The translations under genes were made by a program, and so were the position numbers. The notes below the pieces were generated by a model. The model was not told where the DNA came from. It made no database searches and was given only the letters and a program-made list of their open reading frames with translations. Source: Nautilus pompilius (Eukaryota; Mollusca; Cephalopoda; Nautilida; Nautilidae). From it: a DNA stretch of 64,000 bases. This document shows, piece by piece, positions 2,702-60,626 of the stretch. The stretch covers positions 806,001-870,000 of the forward strand of contig JACATO010000629.1 in NCBI GenBank assembly GCA_018389105.1. Reading direction: 5' to 3'. Numbering within the stretch: the first letter of the stretch is position 1; the number at the start of each line of letters is the position of its first letter.

Positions 2702-2861
2702 CCTGAGCTCTTCCAAGTAAATCTGGGTTACATTTGACCAAGTGTAAGATATAGACAACTGCTTTCTGTTCTTGTCTACAAAGGCTGGTACTGTCAACAG
2801 TTCATCTTGAACATCAGCTGTTGCATTTCTCTCCCTGTATATACCAAATGACTCTAGACTG
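2702..2861 (-). CDS. internal exon of the minus-strand host gene
   Basis: A 160-nt exon on the minus strand with acceptor TTTTGTCTTACAG and donor AGG then GTAAAT. After one base it is open for 53 codons in the only unstopped frame. The peptide contains ERNATADVQDELLTVPAF and, near its end, YTWSNVTQIYLEELR. Two N-x-T sequons (NAT and NVT) would permit N-glycosylation if the protein is secreted or extracellular. It is phase compatible with exon 6282-6370, about 3.4 kb upstream in transcript order. It ends on a codon boundary. The longest and best exon in the window; protein family not recognised. Confidence 0.75.
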
Positions 2862-3704
2862 CTGTAAGACAAAATGAAAATAGGTAAATCATAATGAAAG
2901 CAATTCAGTCCAACATTTTTCATTGATTTTTCCTTTCTATTAGTGTTTCACAAGGTAAATTTTTTCTACTAGCATGCATATATATACACACAATTTATTT
3001 TATTACATTCATCTTTTTCTCAAAGCTACAACTGTTACAGCCAAAATACCCATCACCAAACAATGCTTAAAATTAGATAATTTTTTCATAGGTATCTTAT
3101 CTATATTCTAAACTAATTACCACCTGTTTTCTAAATTAATTTTATTATTATTTTATAGCTGGTGCACACTGCCTCTGACTTTATGGAATTATTACAATTC
3201 AGTTTTTAAAATCATTCTTTGATGACATTTTTTGTGACGGTGTTTTGACAGACTACCAAAGACAAGTTTTGGAAGAGATGACACCTAACAACCCTACTTC
3301 AAGATGTTACAGCAGTGTCCAAAATGAGTGTACTATCCCATGATGCTTTTAAAACAAAATGTCCAGTGTTTACTGAGTGTGTTACAATGTAAAATTGCAT
3401 TTGAAACATAAAAAGCTGATTATTCCTTGTTTTGATGTTCACAGAGGCCCAGCATTAAACATCCACCTTAAAGAAGTCATTCCTTATGGAGATACAGCAA
3501 ACAATGTACATTGCACCAGTCAGGGTATAATCGCATTTCAGCTGATCAATGATTTTGATCACCACTGTATAAAGAACCACTCCCCCCAAAATAAAGAAAT
3601 AAAATGCAAAAAAAATACCATAAAAGAATTGAAAAACTATTAAAATAATGAAATAAAACAAAAAGTCAGGGGTATGGATCATCTGGACTATAAGATTGGT
3701 GTCA

Positions 3705-3800
3705 AGAAATGAAGTACTGCTGGTAGTTCAGTGGAGTCTAAGACTCTTAAGTGCTGAGGACTGACTCGGTGTTCCAAATTCTATTAATGGTGGGATGTAA
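3705..3800 (+). repeat. tRNA-derived SINE head
   Basis: The start looks like an internal Pol III promoter. A box A-like TGGTAGTTCAGTGG at about 3720 is followed 35 nt later by a box B-like GGTGTTCCAAATTCT. Order and spacing are those of a tRNA gene, but the stem pairing is decayed, so it is a tRNA-derived SINE rather than a functional tRNA. Confidence 0.5.
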
Positions 3801-6281
3801 CAGGGGATAACTAACAATAACTCACAAACTGATGTGATATTTTTTTTGTTTTTTGTTTTTATTTATTGATCATTAGATTTCTAGGTGATACAATAAAGAA
3901 ATTAATTAAGCACATGCAGGTCATATGGATTCTTGAACTTTGAAAAAGATCTAACATCCATGGATTGAATCAGTAGAACCATCTTTAGTTGGGGGGAAAA
4001 ATTGGAAAACTTCTTTTAAACTTTATACTGAAGATTAAGATTTTTAAAAAAACACAACCAAAACAAGTTCAAGTTAGTAATATATTTAAAATAATTTTAA
4101 TTGGAATATAAAGCATGAATATTCGTAAATTTTTTTTTTAAAGAATACTCATATCATCTCTTCTAGCATAGTAGTGACATGATAGGCAGACAGGGAATCC
4201 ATGTCTTTAGCTACTGTAGAGGAAAATGTAAGAAAAGAAAATCTTTGAAAAAAACAAGTCATTTGTAGAAATCTATGAATACAACCACTCAGAAGTAATT
4301 ATTCTTTTGAATGGGCAAGACTATGCATGTGATGAGATACCTAGTGGAAGACAATCAGGTTAGATATCTTTGTGGGCTCTTGGAAAATCTTTTCAATCTA
4401 CAAAGTAAGTGCCCTTAAGATATCTCATCAACTCATGCAGATACTCAGAAATTAGATAAATGATACAAATGTCTTTGAGCCTGCATCACCAGCCTTCACA
4501 TCTGTGAGTTTCAAACAGGCTTTGTGATAAGCATCTTCTCTTTAGACAATTGCTGATATGATGGATGTAGCCTGAACCTAATGAAGACAACCCGCTAAAG
4601 GACCATTCTCTCCTGCTGAAGTGCCGATTTCAATAAAGAATCATTCATGAAAATAGCCTGAAGAGTTCTGCTTCTGTAGGTCCTCTTTTTGTATCATTCC
4701 TTGTATATCAAATTCAAAAAATTTTCACTTTTAGGTGTTAAAAAAATCTTATCAAAATAATATTTTAAATTGTAATTTAGTAAATTATTTTTAAAATGCT
4801 TAATCTTAGCAAAGCAAGGAAACAATTTATTTCTAATTTCATAAATTTTCTACATTTATTTTTGAATTATTTTCTTTGAAAATACGTGTGACCTACTGTC
4901 TTCTGGACCTGGTTAAAATTATATATATATTGCTGTATGTATTCTGTAAACATTTTTAAAAGTTGATAGGGTCAGTATTTGTGAAAAAACTAGCACTTCA
5001 AACTTTGCTTTCACTCTTTTTTATTTTTCAAAATTTATGCTTAAGAATTTTAAAAAATCAAAACTTTTAAATGATTTCCCAATTGACCAGGCATCTTTAA
5101 ATATGTTCTGTGTTTGAAACTTGTAAGTATAAAACAAATGTTTTCCAAAACATTTGAATCTTAACGCCTTAAAAGGATATTGTTTGAATCTTAAAAATGT
5201 TACACGTCTTGAATTCTTTTTTTTTTTTTAAAGTTCCCTTTTGACAAATTATAATCTTCATCTCTGAAACTATTACATTTTTAAAAAAAAAAAAACATGC
5301 AGTAAAAGGAAAGAAAATTTCACAACCAGCTTCCATGAGAGAAAACCATACTGCAACAATTTAAAATCTGAATATACAGCGTTTTGTACAAAGCAGAAGC
5401 TGCAGTTTTTTTTTGTATACACCGAAGAATTCAGAAAAATTAACCAGTGAATTTTTTTCATACACAATTTATAAATATACCGAGTATGTTATATTTCTCT
5501 CACACAATGTATTTTTGGAACAATGTTTCAACAGAAACACTTCAGAAACAAACATGTAAACTGGCATTAACCAGGTTGTTCAAACATGTGCACATTTTGC
5601 TATATAAGTTATAAAAAATTCTTGCCCCACTGACTACCTATACCTATATCTTCCATTCCCTTCCTGCTTTTAAAGCTATATATATAAGTTTGTCTTGAGA
5701 AATAATTAGACTAACAAATAAAACACATATCTGTTCAATAAAGGTCAAACAATTAGAGGTTCCAGATTCTCAAAACTGTAATATCCTTCCAGTGATGATA
5801 CTGACACCATGAATAAAAGCTAACCAAGAATTTATATTGTTGGTCTTTTTTTACATTCATACATTTATCAATACTTCAGTACCTGTTTTATCCTGAGCTG
5901 ATCAACATGGTCAACTCTCATATAATCCACTGGTTTTAACCATTGTGCTCCCTTAGTCTGTATTCTGTTTTATTATTATTATCTTAAGCCTCTCATGAAC
6001 AGAAAGGCTCCATGATCTGTTCATCAATGTGTCCGGGTATGAATGTGAAACTATAAACTGAGCAGTATGGTAATGTAGTTTAAGCAAAATAGCTTTTTTT
6101 TAAAAAAAACCTGCACAATAATTTTTTCATGGAATATCAGAACATAGCCAGGGCAACCAGATGAAGTTGTATATCTATTCGTTTGGTTTGTAGCTAAGTA
6201 AATTCTTTTTGTTGTTGCTGTTGCTGACTTTCTACTTGGAATAGCGAGCTTCACTGCCCTGCAGTGTCACAATTTACTTAC
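3801..6281. other. AT-rich intron, no gene seen
   Basis: AT-rich sequence with many A and T runs. No coding signal, no terminal inverted repeat and no tRNA-like block recognised. The segment 4400-4640 is less AT-rich and may be an old repeat, but I could not classify it. Confidence 0.5.
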
Positions 6282-6370
6282 CTTAGTGAGCCAGCAAATG
6301 CCAGAAATTCCAATTTATGTCCTACTGTATCATGAATTATCCTAACTTTTCCAACTGTCTCCACATCAGC
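6282..6370 (-). CDS. internal exon of the minus-strand host gene
   Basis: An 89-nt exon on the minus strand. The acceptor is TTTTATACTTACAG and the donor is CTAAG then GTAAGTAAA, both close to consensus. It is open from its first base for 29 codons (starting ADVETVGKVRIIHDT, ending EFLAFAGSL) and leaves two bases, AG. The next exon, 2702-2861, opens with the single base C, which gives a Ser codon and keeps the frame. Alternating hydrophobic residues suggest beta structure. No family recognised. The junction quality and phase fit with both neighbours make this one of the better supported exons. Confidence 0.7.
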
Positions 6371-8639
6371 CTGTAAGTATAAAAGCCGGCCATTTACTCT
6401 TCCTACTAACATTTAAATAAGTGGTATCATGTACACAGGCGCAACGAACCAGTCCCCAAAATATAAGCTGTTGGAGCACTTTCGCTTTAGGTTTATTTAC
6501 TATTCAAAAGGACAACAACCAAAAAGACCAGAACTGGACTACTTTTTGAAAAGTTTCAAATTAATGTCCACAAACAAAAAGTCTTTTTTATTAGGCATAA
6601 ATGCTGTAAGAATTAATAAAAATGAAAAAAAAAAAAAGGTGCTTATTTTAAGTGCAACTAAACCACTTGCACTGAACCATCATAGCTAGCAGACACAAAT
6701 AAAAGTTAAGAATGAAATGTTTCATTACATATGATCACAGTTGATAATTTAAAAAATAAAAAAAATGTATGCATTTTCTTGTGGTAGTGTATAGCCAGAA
6801 AAAAGTGTAGTGCCATCTCCATGTTTTCACAATTGCCATTGCAGAGAAATAGAGACAGAGGTAGTGCTGATGTGTAAGAAATGGGGTTAAAAATTGTCCA
6901 TTCTGGTCTTTTTAAAGTAAAAAAAAAATGCTAACATGTATATCACCTGCAGTTATTTATTTATTACACTCACACACAAAAGCCAACAATGCAATAATCT
7001 GCTTCAGGTTATTTGTAAGTGTCTTTAAAAATTTTTCGATTAAAGAAAATGATAAACTGTTTTTTCCAAATAACTTCCTCGTTTAGAGACGTGTGGAATT
7101 TGCTAAAGAACTGAAGCTGTGGAAAAGAAGAAAACACGAGTCCTCTTTATTTTCATGCGAAGCCACACGAGAAGGAACAAAGAGTGAAAAGTCGCGTTAC
7201 TTTTAGTAGAAGCTGTCTCAAGCAACTCATTTTCTGAAAGTCTGACTACCTATTAAAAAAATGGAATTGTTGTTGCAAAAGTATGTCCAATATAGCAAAT
7301 TATGCTACCTAAACTTTTATTTCATTACCTGTTTAAATATATTAAAAGAAAGTAACTTCAATTCATTTGAAAAAAATTATTAAATATTTAACCATATGAA
7401 TAATCTAGCAACTTTGTACAATATGGCATCTGCCGCTTACAGCTATCAAGCAGTTTGTCTTATCTACCCAATTGTGTAGCTACTGAAATATGGACAGTGA
7501 CAGGCATATTATCTGAACATTGGATTGTCTACATGTGGCCATACTGCATTATGTGAATTTGATAGCAAAAAAAAACCAGAAATAGTGTTTAAAATGTGCT
7601 GGTATATCTAGTATCACTACTAAGCCATTAATTATGCGGGGTCAGCCAAATAATACAAATGAACAAACAACCACTGGAATGTATATATTTTAGGATCAAT
7701 CAAACTAATGGCCAGCCAATAAAATGCTACTCTGATAACCACAAGGCAAAATCTGTGTATCCAGTCTTCCACTGAACACCTGAGAAGAAATGGCACACAT
7801 CAAACAAATATGATGGTGGATCAGCCTGCTGGTATATAGTTCTTTGAAGACACATACATGGCTACAATCGATGTAAAATGGACCATTAGGAAAATGTGTA
7901 AAAACTCTGCCACTAATCCAGGCAGTCATTCATACTTATGTATTCCAAAAAATGTGGCTAAGTTTGCTTAGCCATAAAAGATCCCATGGAAGAATCAATG
8001 CAACAAGGATCTTAAAACAAAAAATGGCTTTGTGCAAAACCAAAACCTTACATATCAAAAATAAAATTGAGTTATTTTTGTAGTTTATATCCTGAGGTAG
8101 AAATGGAAATTCAAGATATTTTTCTTTTTCTTAAGACCAAACTGGTAGGAAAGGGTACATAGATCATACTAAGTAATTTCAAAATGAAATTGATATTTAA
8201 AGTGTAAAAATAAACAAAAAGGTTTACATTGAACGTTCGTTTTTTTTTTTTTTGATAATATAGATTCCATGTGCTTTTTGGGATAACCTCATTTTTATTA
8301 TACTTGTGACTACAATTTTGCCAACACTATGTAAGTATGTAGTTTTTATAAGCCATTTTATTAAAAAAGGAACAAAAAGCCACCTGTCAGTATCTATATA
8401 TCAGGTGCCATCTTAGAAATTGATTAACTGTATAACTTATTTTCAGAAACCAGCCATTCATAAAGCCAGAACTTCACTTAAATCAGTTAATGATTAATAT
8501 GCATGTCAGAAACATGGTAAGAAAATATTTTTTTAATAAATAGCAACAATTAAACTATTCAATAATTATAACTTATTTTTCAAGTTTTTCTGTCTATACT
8601 TTCATAGTTTTTCTTATAAAACTAAAGTAGAACCTAGTT
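6371..8639. other. intron, little recognisable content
   Basis: Mostly AT-rich. A good acceptor-like tract on the minus strand (TTTTCTTCTTTTCCACAG, about 7119-7136) is followed by 35 open codons, but no convincing donor follows, so it is not called an exon. The block 7690-7930 is less AT-rich and open on the minus strand for 74 codons; I recognise no motif in it. Confidence 0.4.
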
Positions 8640-8840
8640 CTGTATATCCTGCAACACATTAATACTCAGTCTATGATATATGATGGTCCCCTTTTGATTT
8701 TTTTTGGTCCATATACAACCACATTTGCTCAGTGATGTTCAAGCCAGGAATTTGTGCTGGCTATCCCATCACATTCTCAGTACCATCCACTTCTTTATCT
8801 CACAAATACTATTTCACCAAGCTAGATATAAGCTTTGAAT
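8640..8840 (-). pseudogene. Tc1-like transposase relic (3' part)
   Basis: On the minus strand the translation around 8705-8775 reads PAQIPGLNITEQMWLYMD. This is a clear decayed version of the Tc1 signature PDLNPIE(H/N)LW, which carries the third catalytic acidic residue region of the DD34D/E domain. A stop codon lies just upstream (MG*PAQ). The rest of the transposase and the inverted repeats are not identifiable, so this is an old fragment. Confidence 0.65.
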
Positions 8841-9900: not shown

Positions 9901-10160
9901 GTGTACAGTAGACACTCCATTTTTATAGGAAGACTGGAAAAATATCTAATAACAAGTTCTGTGAGATTTGGTAGTCAGGCTATGATTGAATGTCATACTC
10001 ACATATATACACACACACGCATGCATTTAAGAAGTTCATTTTAGAGTAGCTCAAAATAATATCTTTTTTCCTTTGAGAAAGCAGAACCTGCTATAATCGC
10101 CTGTAGACATTGTTCATAACTTCATCCTAATCTGTTCACCTTCTCAGCTGATGCTGCTGA

Positions 10161-10600
10161 TTGTTGTTGTTGTTGTTGTTGTTGAGCAACAAGACGTTGT
10201 GGGTTATAAGTTGGGGGTTGTCGGTTGGGACACATCAGGAAGGTCCGGCGTGGAGGTCCAGTTCTCCCAGATGGTCAGGGCGCGGGTGGGGTCTACCGAG
10301 AGAGTGTCCGGAGGCGGTGGTTCAGCTGGTGGGCGGTGGATGCGGGGACAGTTGTAGATGACATGCCCCGCGGTCTCCTCCCCCATGCCGCATTTCCTGC
10401 AGATGGTGTCGACCGCTCGGTTGATTTTGGCGAGCCAATACTTCAACTCCGGGTGGTGACTGCTGCGCAGACGGCTCAGGATCACCTGCTCCCTTCTGCT
10501 CAGCTCCATCTCCGCCAGTCGGTTGACCTTCTCTCCACGGTCCCCGTAAACTCTTCTGGTTCTCTCGTGAGATGCCGGGTCGCCTCTTGTCGTCCGTCTT
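10161..10600 (-). mobile_element. 5'-truncated non-LTR retrotransposon (LINE) 3' end
   Basis: A strongly GC-rich island in AT-rich DNA, oriented on the minus strand. A 12-bp direct repeat, TGATGCTGCTGA, flanks it exactly (10149-10160 and 10601-10612) and is its target-site duplication. The element ends in an (AAC)n tail on the minus strand, seen as TTG repeats at 10161-10185. It encodes a C-terminal segment containing LSRREQVILSRLRSSHHPEL and the zinc-knuckle-like C-R-K-C-G...H...C, typical of the end of LINE ORF2 (RNase H/CCHC-like tail). The 5' end is truncated, as LINE insertions usually are. Confidence 0.85.
10204..10600 (-). pseudogene. LINE ORF2 C-terminal fragment
   Basis: The open frame continues upstream into flanking host DNA to a Met at 10755, but only about 130 residues, from the target-duplication boundary to the stop at 10204, belong to the element. 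Visible features are an R-L-R-S-x-H-H-P-E-L motif, then C-x2-C-x8-H-x4-C (CRKCGMGEETAGHVIYNC) and a Pro-rich end. This arrangement closes the reverse transcriptase ORF of several LINE clades of Jockey/I/CR1 type. No endonuclease or reverse transcriptase domain remains, so it cannot mobilise. The frame itself is unbroken, which suggests a fairly recent insertion. Confidence 0.75.
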
Positions 10601-10759
10601 TGATGCTGCTGAATAGCAGGTGACCAGAAGTTCTTTCCATGAAGCACAATGCTAAAAGTTAGCACTGTTACTGAAGTCTCCTCAACCCTGGCTTTTAATT
10701 CATGGTTTAATTCAGGTTTCCCAATACATTTTTCACATACAGCAGTTGAACACAATTTT

Positions 10760-13364
10760 AGAAAAAAAAATCAGTAAAGAATGATGTAGTCATAAAGTTG
10801 CTAGAAGTGAAATAAGTAAAAGCATGGAGCATCAAGACCTGCATTGAGCCAAAACACCAAGTCTTTGCAGAATAATTGAGCAACATATTTTTCAACATGG
10901 CAAGAATAATCCCAGCAAATGGCAGGTCTTTCCTGTCGGCTTTCTTTGTTACTAAATAATCATTAGGAAAAATCTAAAATATTAAGAACCAAAGAGTTAA
11001 ACACTGTAAAAAAAAGAAAAGGAAAAAAAAAGGCAACCTTTAAAAGAAGCAAACACCATTCAGAATTTAAATGCATGGCATCATTTTCATTTCTGCCAAT
11101 AAAAATGATTTGAAGTATGCAATACAACTTCACGACATGTAAGAACTAATAATCTGTTATCGACTGTATTCCATACTAATGATCTGGTCTCCACATATAA
11201 AGGTTCCATAAACATGGCTAAGCACCTATGAAATTGAATTACCAGTGTTTTCAGCCTAGAAGCTATTTCAGATCTACAAAATCAAATTATCTTCTAAGGT
11301 TCATTAAGAGGTCACCAAACAGTTAGAATAAATTTAATTTTTAAATGCCACATTTGGACTTCTCTAAATATACTTATTTTAGGTTTCTTTAACACAAATA
11401 AAAATAGTTCTATACCATAAGCAAAGAAAAAAATGCTAATAGTTCCATAAAAAATAATAAGAAAAAAGGAAAAGGAAGCATTATTGTGGTCACACAACAG
11501 TCTAAAGAAAGAGACAATGATAACTCAAGAAATCAGTCAGAATAGCTTTGCACACCTGTATATTTTCATTTCATCTAAAAGTCATTACTACAGATATTTT
11601 TTCAAACAGAATTCTTAATAAGGTGGGGATTGCACATACAACATTAATCTGCTGGTAAAATCCAATTAAAAAAAAATCTATAGTAATAATGTTTAGATTA
11701 GTTGGAATATTATTTGTGTGCTCCAAAAATTTGTAGACAATATATTTGTTAACTAGAATACCTTTGTTCGTAAATATTTAGTGGTGGTACCTGAAATTAA
11801 CTCAATTTCTTGCTATAATTTTATTCCAAATATCACCTAGTTATTATTTTAGGTTTTTCACACAGCATAGTTATTAAGTAATTCATTAAGATGCAGTTAG
11901 TTTATATAAATCTAAATAAGAAGCCACTTTATGGCAGTAAAGCATCCTTGTTAAAATCAAGCTTTGTATAATCATAGTTTAGATAACATACTTGAAATTT
12001 TCTTCTTATATTAAAACAAACAAAAAAGCTCTAGATATTGGAAATCGTTTTATTCCTGAAAATTATATAAATACTTGTTTCCTGTGCTGAAAATCAATCC
12101 ACAAACTCCTTAAGCAACAAATCCAGTTATTATTAAACCATGGAGTAGTTTTGTCAGTCACAGCGGTCATCATTACTCACTAGCATAGTTTGGTTACTGT
12201 GCAAAGAATGTTAAGGAATGTCTTGAAGATTTCAAAATAGACTGCAAATGTAAAAATAAGAAATGACTGTAATATTGATCTTCATTAGCTAAAAGGTTTA
12301 CACTGATCAACCATCCTCTTTTTTTTGGATCTATCTTTCATTTTTTTTTTTAAATATACTGAATTATCTTTTTGGTGAACCATGGCGTGAGAAACACTGA
12401 TACCGGGAATGATTCTCAAAGTTGAAAACGGAGAAACCACCAATTTCACAGAAAAAACAAAGCAAAAAGCAGACAAAATTGAATGTTACAAATTATTTAG
12501 CCATTAATCAAATTGCCTGGTGCATAATTCTGGCTCCAAAGCTATTGAAACCAAAAACTACAATTGTGCTGAACAGCTCTTCTATACACCTAATAAATGT
12601 ACCAGTGCAGAAGATGGTCAAATAAGCACATCACAGTCACTTGTCTAGTTAAGTCATCCATATGCATGTTAAATTCTACACCAACATTTTCACTTGTTTC
12701 TACCTCAAAATAAAGAGAAGATTAATGTAGTATGTTAAGAAAAAATGATAATTAATGATACTGAACTTGCCAGCCAATAAAAATAAAGGTCATAGCTATT
12801 TGGAATCATGTTTGCAGACATGCACAGTGTCCATTTTATGTGAGAAAGGTCAAGATTGGAGAAAACACACACAAAAAAAAACAAACAAGTATCCTTAACT
12901 ACTTTTTTATGCAAATAATGGTGGCCAACATTATGGATTCACCAATAAAATAATTCATTAAGCATGGAGGACAATATTTTTGAGCGACAAAAGTTGAAAA
13001 ATAGCCTTTTTTTTTAAAATCCACAACCACCATAACTTGGAAAAGAAGAAAAAACTTTAAACAAAAATATACTCATACATATAATTGTATGTACTAATAA
13101 ACTAATGTATGTATAAAATATAGGATATTTCATTCAAGTGTCAATAATTATAGGTGCTAGTGAGTGAGTATACATACATTCCAAGTCAGTTCATATGGTA
13201 GATTCATTTGATCAGCATTAGATGAAAAAATACCCCAAATTTTAAACTTTTAATCTTGAAATAAGGAGAAAATTACTAAGACATGGAAAATGATAAAACT
13301 ACAAAAAACAACAACAATAAACTATAAAGAAACTGGCAATCACAGAATATTACTTTTGCATTAC
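10760..13364. other. AT-rich intron, nothing recognised
   Basis: Long AT-rich stretch with A/T runs. No exon-like junction pair, inverted repeat or transposase motif seen. Confidence 0.5.
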
Positions 13365-33427: not shown

Positions 33428-33527
33428 CTCATAGATATCTTTTGGTGCATAGGGCCAATTACCATATAGATTATCCACATAATTTGTACAACTGTCCAGT
33501 GTTCTTTCCTGTCCCCTCTCTGATGGC
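33428..33527 (-). CDS. internal exon of the minus-strand host gene
   Basis: A 100-nt exon on the minus strand with a strong acceptor (ATCTTTGCTGCAG) and a near-perfect donor (GAG then GTAGGTA). After one base that completes the previous codon there are 33 open codons, beginning PSERGQERTLDSC and ending WPYAPKDIYE. The other two frames are poorer: one is stopped and the other runs straight through into intron-like sequence. Composition is clearly less AT-rich than the flanks and looks coding. It ends on a codon boundary, and the next downstream exon (6282-6370) starts on one. I do not recognise the family. A single Cys and several aromatic residues are visible; there is no membrane segment or low-complexity sequence. 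Confidence 0.65.
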
Positions 33528-35499: not shown

Positions 35500-38170
35500 T
35501 TTGCAGAATCCACCATTTTTTTTTTACATTTATCGAAAAAGTAAGTTATGCAAATTTTTGTTAAGATTAAATATTATTTTGAGGTTGCTCAAGTGTTTTA
35601 AATTTTTTTACATTTTAGGTACATTTTAGCTTATTTAAACTCTAACTCATTCTATTTTTGTTCTTTAGATATTAATATTCTAATTTTATAAAAAATGGCC
35701 ACCGCAACTCGATCTAAAAAAGAAATATGGCTCATCAGATCACCCAGTCCATCCCTTCCTAGTAACAAGTTTCCTTCCAGAAAAGAAATTCTAAAACTAT
35801 TGTTTTATCTTCACTGTGAAGAAAATAAAAATTTCATGGAAAGCATCAAAATAACAACAATCAGAGTGATGGAGATATCGCAAAATGAAAATATTCCAAC
35901 GAAGTACAAAGTGAATGTTTGTAAGCATATTCGTCTTCATAAAGAATGGCAAAGTCCCCCAAAAAATACATCTAGAAAGAGTGAAACGAATTTACGAAAT
36001 CAGAAAAGTTTAAAAGAGGTCTTAATGAACTCTTTGATATAGCACATAGGGATGCACTTCCTCTCATCAAAATTCCTGAGGATAAAGAGTTCTTAATTGC
36101 TCAACGTGAACCAAGCTGGAGAGGGAAATTGTACCTTTGGACAGAAAAGCAGCTCAAATGGCATTCAGGAAACAAAGAAGGAAAGAAGCAGAGAATAAGG
36201 CATGAAAAAGAAAAGAAAGAATCGACATCAAGATATACCACTGTAAATTTAGACTCTTCAACATCATCCTCAAGTGAAAGTGAACTATTAAATTCTAGCA
36301 TTCAACAAGAGTCAACAACACGTCCAAGAAAGAAAATAAGAGGTAGTACTGCAATAAGTATGGATGTTGCAGCAGCTCTGGATCGTACACAGATAAGTGA
36401 CAGGAAAGCAACCCACATTCTCATTCCTTTTGCTCTTCAGATGAAAAAGAATGCTACTGAGTTGTCTCTCAGTCCAAGTGCCATTCGGGCAAGACGGCTT
36501 CAATACAGGCAAGGATGTGCTGCAGAGATCAAAGCCTCTTTTAATTCAGATACCCCACTTGTTCTTCATTTGGATGGGAAATGGATGCAGAATTTAACTG
36601 GAAAGGAAAAAAATTGATTGCTTACCTATTATTGTGTCTGGAAATAAGGCAGCAAACTTCTTGCCATTCCAAAGTTTCTGGATTCTAAAGCAGCTAGGTC
36701 ATCCCAAATCATCAATGAAACACTGGATGACTGGGGTATGCGAGAAAAAACCAAAGACTTGTGCTTTGACACAACAAATGTCAACAGAGGAATTCGGGGA
36801 GGAGTTTGCATTCTAATTGAACAAGCCATTGGTTGTAATCTAATTTATTTTGCTTGCCATCATCACATATTAGAACTTTTGCTTGAAGCAGCATTCCTGG
36901 AACTTGTTGCACAAGATAAATCTAGGAGCCCCTGAATTACCATATTTGAAACATTCTGCAAAATTTGACCAACTTTAAACATTCAAGACTATACAACAGG
37001 ACATGGAGACCCTGATACAGCAGTTCTCCTCCAATCATGGCCCGATGAAATAATGAATCATGCACAACATCTCTTTCAGGATTCAGGAGAAACATCCAGG
37101 AGATGACTACAAAAAATTATTAGAACTTGTGGTTATTTTCCTTAGAGGAATTCCCTATGTACGAAATGATGTGCGGTTCATGGCTCCAGGAACACTACAT
37201 CAAGCACGATGAATGGCTTGCGTGATATATTCTTTAAAGATCTGGATGTTTCGTAAGCAATTTTTACATGCGTTTTTGCAAATACCAGCTACATCTGTAT
37301 GTTCATCACAGAGTGAACTTAACTGGGAAGGATTTAGATACTTCTGCCTCTTCGTGGCAAAGCATTATATTCGCTCCTGGTACTCTGCTCGCAATCCAAT
37401 ATCTGCTCCAAAACAGGATCTCTTACCCCTCCAAAGTTTGGAAAAATGTGAGATACCTGCTATCCATACTACTGGATTTAAGAGTTTTAGCCATCATCTC
37501 TGGTATCTTTCAGACGTTAATATTGCATTGGCTCTATTCGATGCATCAGTGTCTATAGCTGAAAAACAAAACATGGTTGGAAATATAAAAAAATGTTGAA
37601 GGCTTGGCAGATCCTGCTTGGAGTGTCTGGGTTCCAGAACCATTGGTGAAATCCCTGGCGGACTTCTCTTCTTCCCAAACTTTAAACTTTTTCCGAACTT
37701 TGGAAATTTCTTCTTTTTTGGACCTTGATCCATTTATCTGGGTGCAAGATGAATTGTTCTCCAAAGCAAAAGAGCTAATTTAATCTCTCAGTGTAACAAA
37801 TGATCATGCCGAAAGAGGAGTATCACTTACTCAATCCTTCACAAATAACCCCAGAACAAAGAATGAGTAGCAGCTCCAATATCTTCTTCAGTTAGTTGAA
37901 GACCACAGGAAGGCATTTCCAAAGGCCTCAAAAGGTGCATTGCTGATGTAAACTGTGTTATACCACTCTGTAATGATACTAGACACAGTATTAAAAATTT
38001 AAAGTTTGATATAAATATTTTTTTCTATTTTTGTAATTTTATATTATTTTAAACTAGCGTAAAACTTTGAAGGCTTTGAGCAACCTCTAAAACTTAATTA
38101 ACTTTTCTGAAATTTTGCAATTGTTACTTTTTTTAGTTACTTAATAAAATAAAAGCTTCTGTGTTGTGAT
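35500..38170 (+). mobile_element. hAT-like (DTT...CxHH) transposon relic with inverted ends
   Basis: A decayed element on the plus strand whose coding relic (35695-37950) is flanked by imperfect inverted sequences. GAGGTTGCTCAAG at 35581-35593 is mirrored by TTTGAGCAACCTC at 38075-38087, and similarity extends on both sides of these cores (GCAAATTTTTGTTAAG... against GCAAAATTTCAGAAAAG...). The exact outer ends and target duplication could not be fixed, so the limits given are approximate. Length about 2.7 kb suggests a once complete autonomous element. Confidence 0.55.
35695..37950 (+). pseudogene. transposase relic, hAT-like fold, family not firmly named
   Basis: Translation starts at 35695 (MATATRSKKEIWLIRSPSPS). 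After a frameshift near 36006 it continues as LNELFDIAHRDALPLIKIPE and FLIAQREPSWRGKLYLWTEK. Later landmarks are VLHLDGKWMQNLTGKEK (36560-36613), CFDTTNVNRGIRGGVCILIE then YFACHHHILELLLEAAF (36762-36890), and near the end NDHAERGVSLTQSFTNNPRT then NEQLQYLLQLVEDHRKAFP with an in-frame stop inside (37798-37920). The D...(D-T-T)...C-x-H-H...E order mirrors the hAT catalytic layout. Homologous uncharacterised proteins are known to me from several invertebrates. At least four frameshifts and several stops make it a pseudogene. Confidence 0.65.
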
Positions 38171-39058: not shown

Positions 39059-39180
39059 CCTGTATAGCTTTTAACACAAGCTGTGTTCATAAACATTAAC
39101 TTTCAACCATCAATCTTACAAAAAGTCCTTTTAATCTGGTCTTAATGATGAGTAAAAAGAACCAAAAAATGCATGATATA

Positions 39181-39689
39181 TACAGGTGCATCTCAACAAA
39201 ATTAGAATATTGTGGAAGAGTTCATTGCACCTTTTCTTACCACACTTTTTCCTTCCAGTCAACTTTCCATGAATATGCTTTGATACAGCACTCTGCGAAC
39301 AGCCAGCCCTTTCAGCAATGACCTTCTGTGGCTTACCCTCCTTGTGGAGGGTGTCAATGAGTGTCTTCTGGACAACTGTCAAGTCAGCAGTCTTCCCCAT
39401 GCTTGTGGTTGTGTGTAGTGAACCAGACTGAGAGATTCATGGTATTTATATTGCATAAATAGTAATTTACTTAAACTCGAAATGGAATATTCTGATATTT
39501 GGAGATATGTTTTTTCTATTTTTTTTTTTCTGTAGGCCATAATTATCAAAATTAAAATTAAAAAATGCTTGAAACATTTTAGTTTACATGTAATGAGTCT
39601 GAAATATATACAATTTTCACTTTCTGAAATAACTGACAAAAAATATTGAACTCTTCCACGATATTTTAATTTTTTGAGATGCACCTGTG
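39181..39689 (-). mobile_element. internally deleted Tc1-like transposon
   Basis: The ends TACAGGTGCATCTCAACAAA (39181) and, on the other strand, CACAGGTGCATCTCAAAAAA (39689) are terminal inverted repeats. They continue into ATTA/TTAAAATAT and TGGAAGAGTT blocks and are flanked by TA on both sides (39179-39180 and 39690-39691). At 509 bp it is about a third of a full Tc1. This terminus type is known from Tc1-like elements of fish and other aquatic animals. Confidence 0.88.
39225..39400 (-). pseudogene. Tc1 transposase N-terminal fragment
   Basis: Minus strand, starting MGKTADLTVVQKTLIDTLHK at 39400, then VIAERAGCSQSAVSKHIHGK. This is the first helix-turn-helix of the paired-like DNA-binding domain of Tc1 transposases. 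After about 55 residues the frame runs into the opposite terminal repeat, so the catalytic DDE domain has been deleted. It might still bind the terminal repeats if expressed, but it cannot transpose. Confidence 0.75.
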
Positions 39690-41908: not shown

Positions 41909-43086
41909 CAGTCGACCCCCGCGTAATAACGGTTCGGTATTCACAGCCCCGGTTATTCGCGGAATTTTCCTTAGAACCTAACTAATAATTGTTCATGGAA
42001 ACCCCACATATTCGCAGAATCACAAATATCTTCCACGTTTTTTAATGCTAAATTATTAATAACAATATAATTTACTAATTTTGTAATATAAATACTAACG
42101 TAAATTCAGCAAAATATCAATATAAAATAAACGCTATTGGCTGAATTTTGAAAGTAGCCAATCCGAGAGCGTTATTCATTTCTCCTCGCTGCTGATTGGC
42201 TGCTGCCCATGAGGCGCTGTCTCGGGCAGATGCAGCGCAGCAGCCCCGCATCATCCAAGTTTACCGCGTGTAGCTATCTCGAGTGTTTCTCTGAGTGTTT
42301 CTCTGAGTGTTGTGTTTCTTGCAGCGTGTTTCTTAAAGTCCTAAGATGCCGCCCAAACGCCCTGCACCTTCTAAGGCTTCTGGCAATGAACCTAAGCACC
42401 AAAAAAAGGTTATGACACTCCAGGAGAAGGTACAACTGCTGGATATACTCTGGGAAGGAAAAAGTTATGCCGCAGTAGGTCACCATTATGGCGTCAACGA
42501 AAGCACCATACGCTACATAAAGAAGAACGAGGCAGCGATCAGGAGTACCATAGCAGTAAGTTTCTGTGAAAGTGCCAAAAGGGTAACGACAGTGAGAAAT
42601 AAGCACATCATCAGGATGGAATCTGCCTTGGCATTGTGGATCAGCGACTGCAAGAAGAAAAACATCCCCTTGGACAGTAACATCATCCGCGAGAAAGCGC
42701 GGAAATTATACCAGCAGTTCGCTACAGGAGACGAAGCAGAAGGCACCAAAGAACCGCAACCAGGACCATAGACAGCACCGGAGGCTGAAGATTTTCAAGG
42801 CAGCAAGGGATGGTTTGATCATTTCCAGAAACGGTTTAAAATAAAGTGTTTCCCTACATGGAGAGGCAGCATCTGCCAACAAAGAAGCCGCCGAGAAGTA
42901 CCCCGTACATTTTACTGTATTTTTTATTAAATTATTATTATACATTTACTTATATATTTTTTTATTATATTTTGACGTTTATAGGCATTTATAGGCATTT
43001 TTATGGACCATGTCCAATATTTGTGGTTTTTCACTCTTTGCGTGTGCTCTAGGAATGTAACCCCTGCGAACAACGGGGGACAACTG
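41909..43086 (+). mobile_element. internally deleted Tigger (pogo) transposon
   Basis: The left end CAGTCGACCCCCGCGTAATA and the reverse complement of the right end (CAGTTGTCCCCCGTTGTTCG) are terminal inverted repeats, with a TA duplication at 41907-41908 and 43087-43088. The CAGT start, CCCCC block, TA target and encoded CENP-B-type protein all identify the Tigger branch of pogo. At 1178 bp it lacks the catalytic half. It is one of the better preserved DNA transposons here. Confidence 0.9.
42346..42771 (+). pseudogene. Tigger transposase DNA-binding half, truncated
   Basis: Starts MPPKRPAPSKASGNEPKHQK. Residues about 25-70 (KVQLLDILWEGKSYAAVGHH then YGVNESTIRYIKKNE) form the first helix-turn-helix of CENP-B/Tigger proteins. 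ALALWISDCKKKNIPLDSNI then IREKARKLYQQF is the second (HTH-CENPB) domain. An in-frame stop follows at 42769. Beyond it FQGSKGWFDHFQKRF and, after a frameshift, HGEAASANKEAAEKYP continue the normal protein before coding similarity ends in AT-rich DNA. The DDE catalytic domain is therefore absent by internal deletion. The start follows a GC-rich leader containing repeated GAGTGTTTCTCT. Confidence 0.85.
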
Positions 43087-46112: not shown

Positions 46113-47423
46113 TGAGGTCTGTCAAAAAAAGAAACCAAACTTTTTAAAATACAAATTTATTACTTTACTTACAATTTAATCAGACTTGTCTCCTTTAAAA
46201 TAGTTCCCTCCACTGTTGATACACTGCCCCAACGCTTTTTCCAGTTTTGGAATGCGTTTTCAGGGATAGTGCACAGTTCTTGTAGTGAATTTTTTTCAAT
46301 CTCTTCTATCGTCTGAAATCAGTGACCTTTATGGGTGGATTTCAACTTTGGGAACAAAAAAAAGTCCGCAGGGACCAAATCTTGAGAGTAGGGTGGCTGG
46401 GGGATGAGAGTCATCTTATGCTTTGCCAAAAGGTCATGGATAAGGAGTGACCCATGAGCAGGTGCATTGTCATGGTGCAGCATCCAGGTTTTGATTTTCC
46501 ATGTTTCAGGCCTCCTCCTTTGCACTGACTCTCTCCATCAGGACATCCAAGTAAAACTCTTTATTGATCATCGGACCATGTGGAACAAACTCATGATGAA
46601 CGACTCCAATCAAAAAAGACGATCAACATCAACTTCACATTTGAGGGACTCTGATGTACTTTTTTTGGTCGCGATGACGATAATCCAACCCACTGCAATG
46701 AGTGCCTTTTTGTTTTGATATCATAGCCATACACCCATGTTTCATCACCTGTTTTGCCACTTTTCAGAAAGCTTTCTTCAGCAACCGAACAATCAAAGAG
46801 CTCCTGGGTGACTGTGACTCGGTTATATTTTTGTTTATCTGTCAGCAGATGCGGCACAAATTTTGTGGCTACACGATGGATGTTCAATTTTTCTTTTAAA
46901 ATCATGTGGCACGAACTTTTACAGATGCCTACTTCTTCGGAAACTTCACAGACAGTCAGGTGACGATTTCCATGGATCACAGCATGCACTTTCTCAATGT
47001 GATCGTTGTCCGTTGTCGTGGAAGGTCGTCCAGATTTGGGATTGTCTTCGGTGGATGTTCTTCCCAATTTGAATGCTGGTGCCACTTGTGACATTGCATA
47101 CAGCTCAAACAATCCTCCACATAAACCTGTTATAACATTAGAAAAGTCTCTGTAAAAGTTTTTCCCAATTTGAAACAGAATTTCACACAAACACATTGCT
47201 CTTCAAGATCCTTCATTGTTCAACTTGCATCAAATCACCAAGTGCACTAAACAAACGTTCACTCTAGTGCGTGTAGGTCGATGAGTAACTGGCGTGGCAT
47301 TACGCGGTTATTATCAGACTGAAGGTCAAGGTCACTGATACACAGCACTCCAGTTGCAAGCACAATGTACTGGCTGGTTGGTGTGCTGTTTTAAAAGTTT
47401 GATTTCATTTTGGACAGACCACG
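46113..47423 (-). mobile_element. mariner-like transposon, near full length
   Basis: Ends TGAGGTCTGTCAAAAAAAGA and, on the other strand, CGTGGTCTGTCCAAAATGAA are terminal inverted repeats of about 28 bp. They are flanked by TA (46111-46112 and 47424-47425). Length 1311 bp is normal for mariner. The transposase runs on the minus strand but is interrupted. Confidence 0.9.
46319..47196 (-). pseudogene. mariner transposase, frame-disrupted
   Basis: Minus strand. The first part (start 47196) contains the helix-turn-helix and linker: EDNPKSGRPSTTT, then VHAVIHGNRHLTVCEVSEEV and GICKSSCHMILKEKLNIHRV. The catalytic domain follows with TGDETWVYGYD (first Asp, TGDETW). After a frameshift near 46590-46530 the C-terminal part reads MLHHDNAPAHGSLLIHDLLA (second Asp) and PPYSQDLVPADFFLFPKLKS (third Asp, 34 residues on: DD34D). 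All three catalytic Asp remain, and the final motif differs little from the family consensus. The break makes it a pseudogene, but it is the youngest-looking mariner here. Confidence 0.88.
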
Positions 47424-51957: not shown

Positions 51958-54086
51958 CAGTCATACCTCGTTTTACGTCATTTCGACTTACGTCAGTTTA
52001 TGCAACTTTACATTACGTCAGTCAGCGAACATCTTGGAATCCCATAAAAATTTTAAAAATCACCTAGAAACCAATAAAAAAGTGCAAAATCACATAAAAA
52101 TAAATGTTAAAATATGTAAAATAATTTATAAATTATTTAAAAGCTTAAAAATTTTTTAAATATTGTGTACAGTACACTTATTAATTTACATGACGTTCGG
52201 TACCTATAGTTCCAGCGTTAGCCGTGTGGCAGCACTAGTTCTTGTCAGCTGATTCAAACTTGTGCTTGTGCATGTGTTTTTTGCAGCGTCTCGTTTGCGT
52301 TGAATTTGTGGCTTCGAAGAAAGTTCCTACTGATAGTTCTAATAGTGGTGCTACTAAGCGCCATGCTATATCGTTGGAAGATAAGCTGGCTATGATAAAA
52401 CACCATGAAAATGGTGAAAAGGTTGCTGGCATATCTCGTGCTTTTAGCTTGAATTGGACGACGGTATCGATGATCATTCATAAGGCACGGATTTTAGCCC
52501 ATGTCAAAGATGATGTTCCAGTGATGAAGAATACCATCATCAACAAGAAAAGAGGCAAGATCTACAAGGAAATGGAACATCATCTTTCTCTTTGGAATGA
52601 ACGGCAGACTCGTCAGCGTATTCCCATAAGCCAGCTGTTGATTAGAGAGAAAGCGTTGTCTTTGTTTAAAGACCTCAAGAAGATGATTCCCGACAAGAGA
52701 GACACAGAATTCAAGGGAAGTTCAGGATTGTTTATGCAGCTTAAGCAGCGACACAGTCTTCACAACGTCAAAATCCAAGACGAAAGTGTGTCGACCGACG
52801 AATTAGCTGCATCAGAATTCACAGAGAATTTGGCAAGGATTATTGAGAACGGATTTCTTCCAGAACAGATATTCAATGTGGATGAGACCGGTCTCTTCTG
52901 AAAGAGAATGCCAGATCGTTCATTCATAGCCAAGGAGGAGAAGGCTATGCCAGGCTTCAAGGTTGCAAAAGACTGTTTGACCCTTCTGTTGGGAGGCAAT
53001 TGCTCAGGCGACTTTAAGTTAAAGCTGCTGGTGGTGTATCATGCCCAGAATCCTTGAGTGCTGGAGATCATCCCCAAGGCCTCTCTCCCAGTTGTATGGA
53101 TGGCAAACTCAAAGGCTTGGGTGACTGTTGCCATTTTTGAGGATTGGTTCTTCAACCACTTTGTACCAGCAGAAGTATTGTAAGGAAAAGGGCATCCTGT
53201 TCAAGATCCTCCTTATTTTAGACAACGCTCCTGGCCACCCACAAAACCTTGTCGATTTTCATCCGAAAATCACCGTCGTTTACCCCCCCCCACCAACACC
53301 ACCTCTCTCTTGCAGCCGATGGACCAGGGGATCATTGCCATCTTCAAACATTACTACCTTAGGTGTATGCTTAGGCAGGTTGTAGCTGCAATGGAACTGG
53401 ATGACGATGTCACACTCCGTGACTTTTGGAAGGGATATGAAATCTACAAGAACCGCAACACATCACCATCAGCAGAATGCAGCAGGGCTTTGCGCACATC
53501 GAGAAAGTGCTTGCAATTTTCGAGATGGATCCCAATGCTCAACGTTTCGCAAAAATTATGGGGGCAGTTCATGACACTACTGTTCCTAATAGGATCCTAC
53601 ATGAAAAGAAGAGCAAGACTATTCAGGGCACTCTTGACCAGTTCTTGCAGTGCATCGAAAATCAACAGGAAAAACTTGAATAGTCTGCTGGAGAGCCTCA
53701 GCTGTCAACGTCAACATAGTCTCATCCTTTTCCTCTAACCTCCACCTCTGGCTTATCAAGCATCCAACCTGATTCACGATAGATTGTAATTCCCCATATC
53801 TGCTAGATTAACTACAAATGAACTTGTTCAAGTCAGGTGTGGTAAATTTTTTTGTTTTTTCTTTACATTAGTATCAATTAAAATGTATAAATTTATTAAA
53901 AAGAATGTAAAAATGTTGAACTATTGAACGACTTATTGTATTCCTACATGCCGATGTTATTGGTGACATTATGGGGTTATTTATTTATAGGGGTTTATAT
54001 GGGGTCTAGGTCGTTTTTTAAAGAGTTTATTTGACTTAAGTCGCACGTCTTGGAATGAATTAATGATGTAAGGTGAGGTATGACTG
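51958..54086 (+). mobile_element. full-length Tigger transposon with few lesions
   Basis: The left end CAGTCATACCTCGTTTTACG and the reverse complement of the right end (CAGTCATACCTCACCTTACA) are terminal inverted repeats. TA flanks both sides (51956-51957 and 54087-54088). The CAGxCATACCTCGTTTTA start is close to that of mammalian Tigger1 as I remember it. At 2129 bp the element spans both DNA-binding domains and the full DDE domain. Confidence 0.92.
52242..53683 (+). pseudogene. Tigger transposase with intact landmarks but stops and frameshifts
   Basis: An open frame from 52242 carries RHAISLEDKLAMIKHHENGE then KVAGISRAFSLNWTTVSMII (first helix-turn-helix), LSLWNERQTRQRIPISQLLI (CENP-B second domain) and FNVDETGLF (first catalytic Asp), ending at a TGA (52899) where the family has Trp. 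Reading resumes in frame with [21 protein letters not shown] second TGA follows at about 53056. Then LILDNAPGHPQNL (second Asp) and, after a frameshift at a C-run near 53284, LQPMDQGIIAIFKHYYLR (third Asp), with another shift before the C-terminal end at 53683. The true start may be a Met inside the called frame. Confidence 0.88.
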
Positions 54087-54088
54087 TA

Positions 54089-57005: not shown

Positions 57006-57009
57006 TAAT

Positions 57010-58320
57010 CTTGAGTTGTGAAAATATACATGGAAAGTGTGTAAGTGATTGTGATAGACAACAAATTATTACATATTTCAAAATGGATCTGACACATTCA
57101 GAAATTGTTGAAATACTCGGGCTTCCAGTAAGAACTACTGGCAGGATTATTGAAAATCATAAGAAAACTGGACCCTTTTTCCATATGAAAAAAGGTGGGT
57201 CACTAAAGAAAATGTCATCAAGGAAAAGACAAGTTTTGACAAGACTTCAAAATTAAAAAAAAAAAAAGATAGATGGTAAATTAGCTAAAAAATTGGAAGA
57301 AAGTGTTGCCAAAAAATATCAGATAAATCTGCCAGAAGATATTTTGTAATAGACATCCCAAATAAAACACCAGAGCTTTCTGCAATACAAGAAGAAGAAA
57401 CTTCAATTTTTAAAGGAATACCAAAATTGGCAGTTAAAAGATTTGAGCAAGGTAAAATTTGCAGATGAAAGCTCAGTTAATCCTTTTGGTAATTGTGGTG
57501 CTTTGAGAGTCAGAAGAAAATCAAGTGAAAGATTCAAATCAAACTGTATTTTACCAACCCACAGGCACCTAAAAGATATCCACACCAAAATCCATTTTTC
57601 TGCTAATGGTAAAGGTAATTTAGTAATCCTACCAAAGGAAACATTGCTGCTGTTGTTCCATAATACTGTGCATTCCATAGCATGATACCCCCCCCCCAAA
57701 AGGCCAGTATCTCAGTGACAGATGAGTGAATCTGTAATGAGTGCAAAACACAATAATCCCAACTAGAATCCTTCATTTTTAGATATGAGATAAAGCCAAA
57801 TTGCCTGAAATAAACTCACCCAACCAGCTGGTAAGCAAGAGTGACAAGGTGAGATCACCCCCAACAGAAATCAAACCTGGCTCTCCAGCTTCATAGTCCA
57901 ACATCCAACCTAACCACTGGACCATTGAACACCACAGAAGGAAGATCAATAAATAAAAACTGGTATTCGCATATTTTAAAAACAGATTTTGTAGAATCTG
58001 TTAAGAAACTACATCTTGGTGGTAACTTTTGGTTTTTAAATACAAGGCTCCATGTCACACAGCAAAGAAAGTTTTCTCTTGGTTCAAGAACAATAAAATT
58101 CATTAGTATGAAGTCTGGCTTTGGAATTCTCTCTATTTAAATAAATTTAAGAACATATGAGCAATGGAAGAAATGATATAATGCAAAAAAAACATCCAAA
58201 GAACAGGAAAAACCATTAAGGAGGCTAAGGGAAAACACTTCATTACATGAGCCATTAGCTGAAACAATGTCAGGAAAAATGGGAGCAGTCATTAAATACA
58301 AAGATTACTGGTAAAAATAT
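57010..58320 (+). pseudogene. Tc1-like transposase relic interrupted by a SINE
   Basis: Plus strand. The N-terminal part reads MDLTHSEIVEILGLPVRTTG then RIIENHKKTGPF (57084-57178), the first Tc1 helix-turn-helix and linker. The catalytic start is LSKVKFADESSVNPFGNCGA (57441-57500), the F-S-D-E-S block, then KIHFSANGKGNLVIL. A SINE occupies about 57700-57915. The domain resumes with INKNWYSHILKTDFVESVKK and LGGNFWFLNTR (57946-58045), where the second Asp motif (QxDNxPxH) has decayed. NAKKTSKEQEKPLRRLRENT follows near 58181. Stops and frameshifts throughout make this an old inactive copy. Confidence 0.75.
57700..57915 (-). repeat. tRNA-derived SINE inserted in a Tc1 relic
   Basis: Carries AACTAGAATCCTTCATTTTT (57763) and CACCCAACCAGCTGGTAAGC (57817). 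The tRNA-like head is reversed at the right: AACAGAAATCAAACCTGG (box B complement, 57862) and CCAACCTAACCACTGGACCA (box A complement, 57903). A C-run and poly-purine segment lie at its left (tail) end. Its position splits the Tc1 coding relic, so it inserted later. Confidence 0.7.
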
Positions 58321-59350
58321 TAACAAAAATCAAGACTTTGTAGTTATAACTAAATTTTTCTGCTATAATTATATATTTAGTATCTTTTTTTTTTGTAAAT
58401 TTCCTTTAACATGTTTGTCAATAAATCTTGACAAAAACAAAACCACTTCTATCTGTCTTAAAGCCTTCATATTAAAAAAAAAAGAGAATAAAACATTGAA
58501 AATTACTGAATGAGTCAAATTGACTGGCCAGGGCTAAACTTACTAAGAATATAAAATTGTATGTTAAAATTTATTTGTTTTACAAAAAAAAAATCATTCT
58601 ATTTTTAAAGAGAAATAACAATCTACATGCTAAGTAATATTTGGTGATAACCTTTGTTTGCTGATCAAATTGCACCGTTTTTGGAAATTTTCTGTAAAGA
58701 AAAATTTACTATAGTATTTTGCATTCCACATTCAATGGCATTCCAGCTGTCATTAAATATACTAGAGCTGAGAAAGATGTGTCAATATTGGGGCAAATTG
58801 TGCATCAAATGCGATCTGAAGTAGCACAGGAAATTATTCTCTTTGGTCAAGAAATTGTAACGGACTGCTATGGTATGCTCTCCATTATATTCAGTGAATC
58901 AGAAAGAGATTAAAAAAAAAAAAAAAGTCTAAAAATTAAATTAAATGAAGCAAAGGAAAAAATAATAAAGAAAAGTAAATAAGAATTAAAAGAAAAAGAA
59001 AACAACTGCAATGTTGAAGTTATTTAATCTTTGAAGCATATGCTATTTAATATATGTAAACACCTTTTTATTTTAGGTGTTTCATTTTTAAAGACGACAT
59101 AATAAGATGGCAATAAAACAAGCTGTCACATGTTAAAAGTGTTTTACGTGAGTTCAACAAAATTTGATGGCTCCATTATTATACCCTGAAAACAACCTTG
59201 GAAGTAATGTGTCCTAACTAAACTAGCTTATCCTGGATGTTTGATGAAGACTGTTCAGAAATTCTCCTTAGAGGTTTCCTACAGGTTTTATTGTTTGGCT
59301 ATATTTAACTTAACTTAAAGATGCATTGCAAAGAATTTTATTTGAAACAT
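58321..59350. other. AT-rich intron, nothing recognised
   Basis: Short open frame at 58719-58913 without recognisable motif; A-rich runs around 58913-58926. Confidence 0.45.
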
Positions 59351-59354
59351 ATGT

Positions 59355-59357
<3 letters not shown>

Positions 59358-59410
<53 letters not shown>
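59358..59410. repeat. (CA)n microsatellite
   Basis: About 26 uninterrupted CA units. It produces spurious long Cys/Val-repeat open frames on the minus strand, which should not be annotated. Confidence 0.97.
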
Positions 59411-59414
<4 letters not shown>

Positions 59415-59546
59415 AAAACATATGAAAATAATCTAAAAAATTTGTTTGGATACAACAGTGTACAAGAGATACATGCATTGGGCACCAACTGAATAGTATG
59501 GAAGAGAAGAACACAGAAGAGATCCACAAATTCTGTAACTGGAAAA

Positions 59547-59583
<37 letters not shown>
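59547..59583. repeat. compound (GT)n(GA)n microsatellite
   Basis: A GTGTGT run passes directly into a GAGAGA run. Confidence 0.95.
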
Positions 59584-59584
<1 letters not shown>

Positions 59585-60559
59585 TTGAGAAAGATACATA
59601 ATGAAAACAACCATATCACTAATTAACAGTGTATTTTGAAATCATTATTTAAAGTCTCACAGTTAGATTACTGTAGAGTGGTTTCATTATATACTGTTGA
59701 AAAGTTATCCTTAAGCAGATCTACTAACATGTCGGTAAGATCAAGATCGCTGCTTGTGTTTACTTGTTTGTAATAACTATTCGTGCATACGGCAGGCCTG
59801 TAATAAGCAGTGAAGTTATTTGCTTTTTGCTTAAATGAATACATAAATACAAGGATTCATGTCAAATGAATGCTCATCCAAAACAAAAAATAAAATATGA
59901 ATAAAATTTTTATAACAGGTTTTTTTTGTGCTATGCAAAAATAAAACAAAATAATAAAACAGCAATCATCAGTTTAGATACTTCGTGTCATGCATATGGA
60001 ACCAAGTAACAATGATTTAGGAATATAAAAAAGTTTCCAGTATATTCATTCGAATAAAACTGACCAGGTACAAACAGTGATGCTATTTCAGCTGGAATTC
60101 ATTCCAGTGCCCCTAGTATTAGTGTCTTCATGGATATTTTTTTATTTTTCACAAAAGGTTTTATACACAGTGACAACCCAGAAACTATATCCAGTACTGA
60201 ATGACAGGGTTAGTTTCCAAACACTGGTTAATGAATATACAGTTTAATCCTGATGGTATCACACATAATGCTGCTTTAAACAGGTGCTCTCTTAAAAAGT
60301 ACAGTCTGAGTAAATCTTGAGCAAATGTTTCCTTTCTATTACTGTCAAGTTGTCTTAGGAAATTCTCTCAGTACTCACTTCTTGCTAATATAAAACTTAA
60401 AATAAATGCATTCAATTTTAAGTAGTTAAAAAAACAAACAAAAAATTGTATTAGGAAGCAAAGATCCATTTCGCCTCTTCATAAAATACCTAAACTAGAT
60501 TTGTAACAAACTGACGTGTTTCTGAGTATATAAAATTATATGGAGCAGCAGCAGCTTAC

Positions 60560-60626
60560 CATATTCTCACATTAGCAATGCTGCAATATGCCTTGCATGC
60601 CTCATCATCCAAGTTACATGGCAGAC
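60560..60626 (-). CDS. Cys-rich internal exon of the minus-strand host gene
   Basis: A 67-nt exon on the minus strand. The acceptor is strong (TTTTGTTTTTCAG) and the donor is ATG then GTAAGC. Only one frame is open: two bases, 21 codons, then two bases. The peptide reads LPCNLDDEACKAYCSIANVR and one more residue. Its three cysteines are spaced C-x6-C-x3-C, a spacing seen at the start of cysteine-stabilised alpha/beta peptides and other extracellular Cys-rich modules; this is suggestive only. The two overhanging bases TG join the G that opens exon 33428-33527 to make a Trp codon, so the phases agree. That would place a 27-kb intron between them, unless exons were missed. Function not recognised. 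Confidence 0.5.

Follow-up and report, generated by a model that had tools for sequence, protein, structure and literature searches.

The window considered here is a 64,000-nucleotide stretch of Nautilus pompilius DNA, bases 806001–870000 of the 1,319,966-base contig JACATO010000629.1 (assembly GCA_018389105.1; 727,640,739 bases). An earlier note on this DNA had proposed that a single unrecognised host gene crosses it on the minus strand in four exons. Our analysis supports one minus-strand host gene across the window, as exons of that strand carry on in phase past either end of it and profile matches flank the window. The window is probably an internal stretch of a gene of about 284 kb for a surface protein, which would combine a part resembling lytic polysaccharide monooxygenases (LPMOs), CHRD domains and a cupredoxin-like domain, span the membrane once and serve extracellular binding. 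The four exons were found where the note had placed them, with open frames, matching phases and an AG before and a GT after each:

Window 60560–60626, minus strand: exon of 67 bases, two codon bases in and two out, reading LPCNLDDEACKAYCSIANVRI.
Window 33428–33527, minus strand: exon of 100 bases, one base in and none out, reading PSERGQERTLDSCTNYVDNLYGNWPYAPKDIYE; a linker behind the LPMO-like part.
Window 6282–6370, minus strand: exon of 89 bases, entered at phase 0 with two bases out; opening half of what may be a first CHRD-like domain.
Window 2702–2861, minus strand: exon of 160 bases, one base in and none out; second part of the possible first CHRD-like domain.

In the joined translation, the three junctions read as predicted (TG plus G giving Trp, phase 0 to phase 0, and AG plus C giving Ser), and the introns measure 27,032, 27,057 and 3,420 bases, close to the proposed sizes. 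Both expected N-glycosylation sequons, NAT and NVT, are present and lie in exon 2702–2861. The peptide is 138 residues long without a stop, not 137 as had been counted. The description of the splice sites as strong fits seven of the eight (5.1–7.9 bits) but not the donor of exon 2702–2861 (AGG/GTAAAT), which reaches 2.2 bits. On its own, the 138-residue peptide gave no match in Pfam; a vicilin match from the PDB at E 1.3 was judged to be chance. The four exons lie outside the repeats detected by self-comparison of a 264-kb stretch, and the sole genome-wide match of exon 2702–2861, in a search that skipped very common words, was itself.

To rank the exons among all open stretches, we used generic splice-site matrices and a generic, untrained codon model, with limits that were fixed after the exons had been seen (acceptor at least 5, donor at least 2, length 60–250, total at least 13.5 bits). 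At these limits the minus strand of the window yielded five frames at four acceptors, exactly the four exons, one being open in two frames, and these are the best splice-plus-coding candidates on that strand; exon 2702–2861 is lost at stricter limits. Sixty dinucleotide shuffles of the window gave a mean of 0.17 candidates and a maximum of two. This control has a caveat in that real DNA yields more such candidates than shuffled DNA. At the same total, the plus strand of the window gave five frames at three acceptors, the plus strand of the right flank eight frames at five acceptors, and the plus strand of the left flank none. Over the two flanks of ∼100 kb, the count ranged from 0 to 11 candidate frames per strand, part of them repeat-like open reading frames (ORFs) or further exons of the same gene. 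The shuffle control points to more than chance; agreement of the phases, taken by itself, would prove little (about 1 in 27). What carries the gene model is the continuation of its exons beyond the window, which we followed through contig positions 706001–806000 and 870001–1030000.

Upstream of the window, three exons carry the LPMO-like part:

Contig 889430–889553, minus strand: exon reading ADDYPVGKCSGSTYYITVKIPDIECKHCYLQVTLIDTDKQT; its phase leads into window exon 60560–60626.
Contig 903660–903772, minus strand: uncertain bridging exon, in the phase required between its two neighbours.
Contig 994395–994619, minus strand: exon with PYTIRFEETVYH opposite bacterial ETIFHPGHYR.

The first of these, extended by window exon 60560–60626 and a portion of 33428–33527, matched the NCBIfam model NF043005, which describes polysaccharide-monooxygenase-like proteins, at E 1.6e-4, the aligned stretch being in the upstream exon. 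With a profile built from 22 of 24 bacterial loci (two partial ones omitted), exon 889430–889553 came out on top of 16,467 six-frame segments at E 0.0095, the next segment being at 2.3; exon 994395–994619 was seventh (E 16). Regular-expression scans for LPMO motifs upstream of the window failed to detect these exons. The five-exon peptide, two exons of which are in the window, matched NF043005 at E 6.5e-9. Because its 36.0 bits compare with a curated cut-off of 75, the LPMO-like part is, judged from its sequence, related to this family and not a member of it. The same peptide scored 23.3 bits against Pfam LPMO_10 (PF03067), or 24.2 with the tentative N-terminus described below, just above the cut-off of 23, and 15.9 bits against the bacterial profile, for which the best of 2000 shuffles reached 7.2. 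The aligned motif EETVYH keeps the second, internal histidine of ETIFH in the bacterial profile, which we take to be the internal copper ligand of LPMOs.

A tentative first exon lies further upstream, where a CpG-rich stretch at contig 1021–1023 kb holds an ATG frame, MQAIGFVCVFVNLAPSVLSQVRMVCPK..., with a donor in the right phase. By eye, which is also how the membrane helix below was called, the frame resembles a signal peptide. The exon, itself unproven, reads ...SVLSQVRMVCPK and lacks a histidine among the residues that directly follow the signal peptide; if it is right, the starting histidine of active LPMOs is missing. The CpG-rich stretch at contig 1021000–1023000 is a candidate promoter of the gene. 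Its CpG observed/expected ratios are 0.93 and 0.79, and all remaining 1-kb bins between 994 and 1030 kb lie at 0.05–0.61.

Downstream of the window, the exon chain runs on as follows:

Contig 795863–795934, minus strand: exon in phase behind the last window exon.
Contig 791762–791918, minus strand: next exon, in phase.
Contig 784157–784252, minus strand: next exon, in phase.
Contig 780159–780241, minus strand: next exon, in phase.
Contig 750281–750340, minus strand: tentative exon, behind a missing one.
Contig 744825–744931, minus strand: exon of a third CHRD-like domain.
Contig 744073–744198, minus strand: exon of the third CHRD-like domain.
Contig 743738–743884, minus strand: exon of the third CHRD-like domain.
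Contig 741768–741896, minus strand: exon of a domain resembling the plastocyanin-like family PF02298.
Contig 738589–738757, minus strand: exon of the same plastocyanin-like domain.
Contig 737493–737710, minus strand: last exon, with a 22-residue hydrophobic stretch and the end FERF before the stop.

For the third CHRD-like domain, the best match to Pfam CHRD (PF07452) had E 1.7e-4 and 22.9 bits (22.3, 20.9 and 20.0 bits with other queries), and chordin was the sole kind of protein returned by a PDB search, with three chains at E 1.1e-6 to 8.2e-6 (0.0019 for the best single stretch). None of 2000 shuffles scored equally well against a profile built from 14 CHRD sequences of plasmids. The second domain closes with KITTKSSPDGELGGDL, similar to the end of CHRD. 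In pairwise comparison with the third domain, six of 500 shuffles were equally good; none of 1000 were with a four-sequence CHRD profile, and the result was weaker with the 14 sequences (26/2000). Domains 1 and 2 had no Pfam match, and joined they returned nothing from the PDB up to E 10. A CHRD consensus scan of viral contigs found no relative, and neither did the four-sequence profile among the 24 bacterial loci at E ≤ 1.

The two exons that follow matched PF02298 at E 0.0038 with 17.6 bits for a 130-residue query, and with 13.9 and 15.2 bits for other queries; no cupredoxin was matched in the PDB up to E 10. By eye, the two disulfide cysteines are retained, and none of the four type 1 copper ligand positions (His, Cys, His, Met or Gln) is kept relative to the consensus.

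Together these exons make up a 19-exon model that starts at contig 1,021,790 with the tentative first exon and ends at 737,493, with the four exons of the earlier note occupying 866,626 to 808,702. Twelve exons give 498 open residues, one exon is missing, and seven more give 317 residues and a stop; 17 of the 18 junctions are in phase. Across these two pieces there are eight N-glycosylation sequons, including the two in the window. The window exons correspond to about residues 224–362, at the junction of the LPMO-like part and the first CHRD-like domain, and the Cys-rich start of the window segment falls where the LPMO-like domain should close. Exon 60560–60626 is placed at that close and the last two window exons at a possible first CHRD-like domain; both placements follow from position and not from homology. 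The output of an exon chainer over 264 kb was set aside, since it joined transposon ORFs. That all exons belong to one transcript is what we infer. The word 'unrecognised' still fits the window segment, which has no family, but not its flanks, which match LPMO_10/NF043005, CHRD/chordin and plastocyanin-like proteins, several of them below cut-offs. Because of these flanking matches, the gene is, as far as sequence comparison goes, no family-less orphan and stands near LPMO-like, CHRD and cupredoxin proteins.

Several observations weigh against this model. One exon, entered at phase 0 and left with one base, is missing between 780159 and 750340. The first exon contains a 61-base intron-like stretch whose removal breaks the frame. 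With the bacterial profile, the bridging exon 903660–903772 ranked fifth of 34 in-phase candidates (18.0 bits; 23.2 for the best and 15.2 with no bridge), several higher-scoring bridges restore a glycine behind the histidine motif, and three same-phase exons beat it on splice-plus-coding total (13.8, 12.8 and 12.3 versus 11.8). We preferred it because it comes closest in look to the missing part (PFRI.L...LLDH.PHN), which is a judgement; the pattern was expected before it was found and so does not count as a test. The CHRD score of the third domain stayed under the curated cut-off of 24.1 bits in every query, as did the PF02298 scores under theirs of 20.8. Domain 1, formed by window exons 6282–6370 and 2702–2861, is CHRD-like by pattern only and not significant: equally good shuffles numbered 17 of 1000 with the four-sequence profile and 68 of 2000 with the 14 sequences, and in pairwise comparison 173 of 500 against domain 2 and 200 of 500 against domain 3. 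Window exon 60560–60626 did not raise the LPMO score (958 of its 1000 shuffles did equally well). It is therefore position and phase, and not homology, that tie the window exons to the LPMO-like domain. Nor do the window exons as a whole have a significant homology signal of their own to either side.

This lack of a signal is one of the points in favour of a second explanation, in which two or more neighbours lie on the same strand: an LPMO-like gene that ends in or close to the window, and a CHRD/cupredoxin gene that begins in it or after it, with the window exons in one of them or split. The very long introns and the one junction of the model where an exon is missing speak for it too. As the best terminal-exon scan covered only the contig below 745,000, that search does not speak against a stop near the window. 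In contrast, the phases agree inside the window segment and at both of its ends, and we consider separate genes to be rather unlikely.

Another possibility is that the protein is the same but active, that is, a copper oxygenase anchored in the membrane that carries its own cupredoxin for electron transfer and oxidises a polysaccharide of the surface or matrix. The LPMO_10 match at the cut-off, the histidine at the position of the bacterial one in ETIFHPGHYR and the cupredoxin-like domain in the same chain would suit such an enzyme. It is quite improbable in view of the tentative N-terminus, with no histidine in the first residues past the signal peptide, and of the apparent replacement of the four usual cupredoxin ligands (by eye, against the consensus). 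We give hardly any credence to the idea that the four exons are non-coding, splice-like open stretches that line up by accident: they are short and their coding scores are low (0.5 to 5.3 bits in the untrained model), but both the shuffle control and the in-phase continuation to profile-matching exons on both sides argue against it.

Returning to a single gene for a surface protein, the predicted order of its parts would be a signal peptide, an LPMO-like domain, then two or three domains of the CHRD type, which chordin carries as repeats, a phytocyanin/plastocyanin-like domain, a membrane helix and finally a short tail. The product would be a single-pass plasma-membrane glycoprotein with its domains outside the cell. 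Within the present model, the LPMO-like part appears to retain one of the two copper histidines. Since copper ligands were apparently lost, an extracellular binding protein is favoured over an enzyme. The protein may bind matrix, sugar or a secreted ligand at the cell surface, using copper-protein folds minus their metal sites, and would not act as an oxidase. The apparent loss of ligands, together with the binding of BMPs by chordin, is the reason for proposing a binding role outside the cell.

Some other elements share the window and the contig. On the plus strand, window 42337–42771 and 52239–53738 are transposase pieces, with CENP-B_N and HTH_Tnp_Tc5 in 42337–42771 and 52239–52901 and DDE_1 in 53184–53738; we take them to be of the pogo/Tigger type. 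A helix-turn-helix ORF on the minus strand (39131–39436; HTH_38, 21.4 bits, cut-off 27) is presumably Tc1-like, and the minus-strand ORF 46591–47202, with no Pfam match at E 0.01, is assumed to be mariner-like from its motif. Overlapping plus-strand ORFs of up to 210 residues at 35692–36935, which matched only RHINO (20.3 bits, cut-off 25), are possibly a mobile element. A GC-richer patch at 10148–10770 has long open frames on both strands and a weak zinc-knuckle match under the cut-off, and is retroelement-like; an AC dinucleotide microsatellite of 26.5 copies occupies 59358–59410. Outside the window, a minus-strand exon at contig 711937–712033 (VFSDNYKLTIGVDFALKTLQVDEKTTVNLQL), with a weak Ras match (E 0.0034, under the cut-off), belongs to a separate downstream gene and is, we presume, Rab32/38-like. 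In a long intron, a well splice-flanked open stretch of 65 residues at contig 926231–926428 on the minus strand (ESVARFSGSLIG...) is out of phase with the model and had no Pfam match.

Compared with known proteins, the LPMO-like part aligns over ∼95 domain positions with the SCE4755 family (NF043005; myxobacteria and others) and LPMO_10, including P-x-x-x-C-x-x-C-x-LQ and E-T-[IV]-[FY]-H. It differs from them in that the N-terminal histidine was not found, the C-terminal exon is unmatched, and further domains are joined to this part within one long gene. The likeness to chordin (CHRD, PF07452) lies in the third CHRD-like domain; what differs here are the LPMO-like and cupredoxin-like parts and the membrane helix. 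An hmmscan of the assembled pieces, with one exon of the model missing, found LPMO_10, CHRD and PF02298 only and no von Willebrand C domain, whereas chordin has such domains and binds and sequesters BMPs, according to the parts consulted of a paper on cephalochordate proteomes, which deal with ordinary chordin (PMC6071037). For the phytocyanin/plastocyanin-like domain, 67 residues align over 61 of the 84 positions of PF02298, sharing the disulfide cysteines and, by eye, with the copper ligands replaced. The AA15 LPMOs of arthropods and molluscs, set beside our protein by description only, likewise belong to the LPMO superfamily and are secreted proteins of animals, and in the sections consulted, those of Thermobia retain the N-terminal catalytic histidine and ten cysteines (PMC5823890).

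In a literature search that left most subscription journals out of its scope, we found no paper with 'chordin' and 'lytic polysaccharide monooxygenase' together, and none combining 'CHRD domain' with LPMO or cupredoxin among the matches listed. The titles and abstract starts surveyed contain no architecture of LPMO-like, CHRD and cupredoxin-like parts with a helix. Orthologues labelled as uncharacterised, or under other names, likely exist in the databases. We put forward, tentatively and as a possibility that falls short of the single-gene model in likelihood, that the gene represents an undescribed family of animal surface proteins in which an LPMO fold, CHRD repeats and a phytocyanin-like domain are anchored in the membrane as one chain, a user of CHRD other than chordin whose retired copper folds may serve to bind ligands of the BMP type or sugars of the matrix.

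A tool-free reading of the raw sequence located coding exons tens of kilobases apart, and this led to the gene described here. If confirmed, the gene would bring together the LPMO superfamily and CHRD repeats as they occur in a BMP antagonist, and would offer a testable idea of how enzyme folds turn into surface recognition modules in animals.

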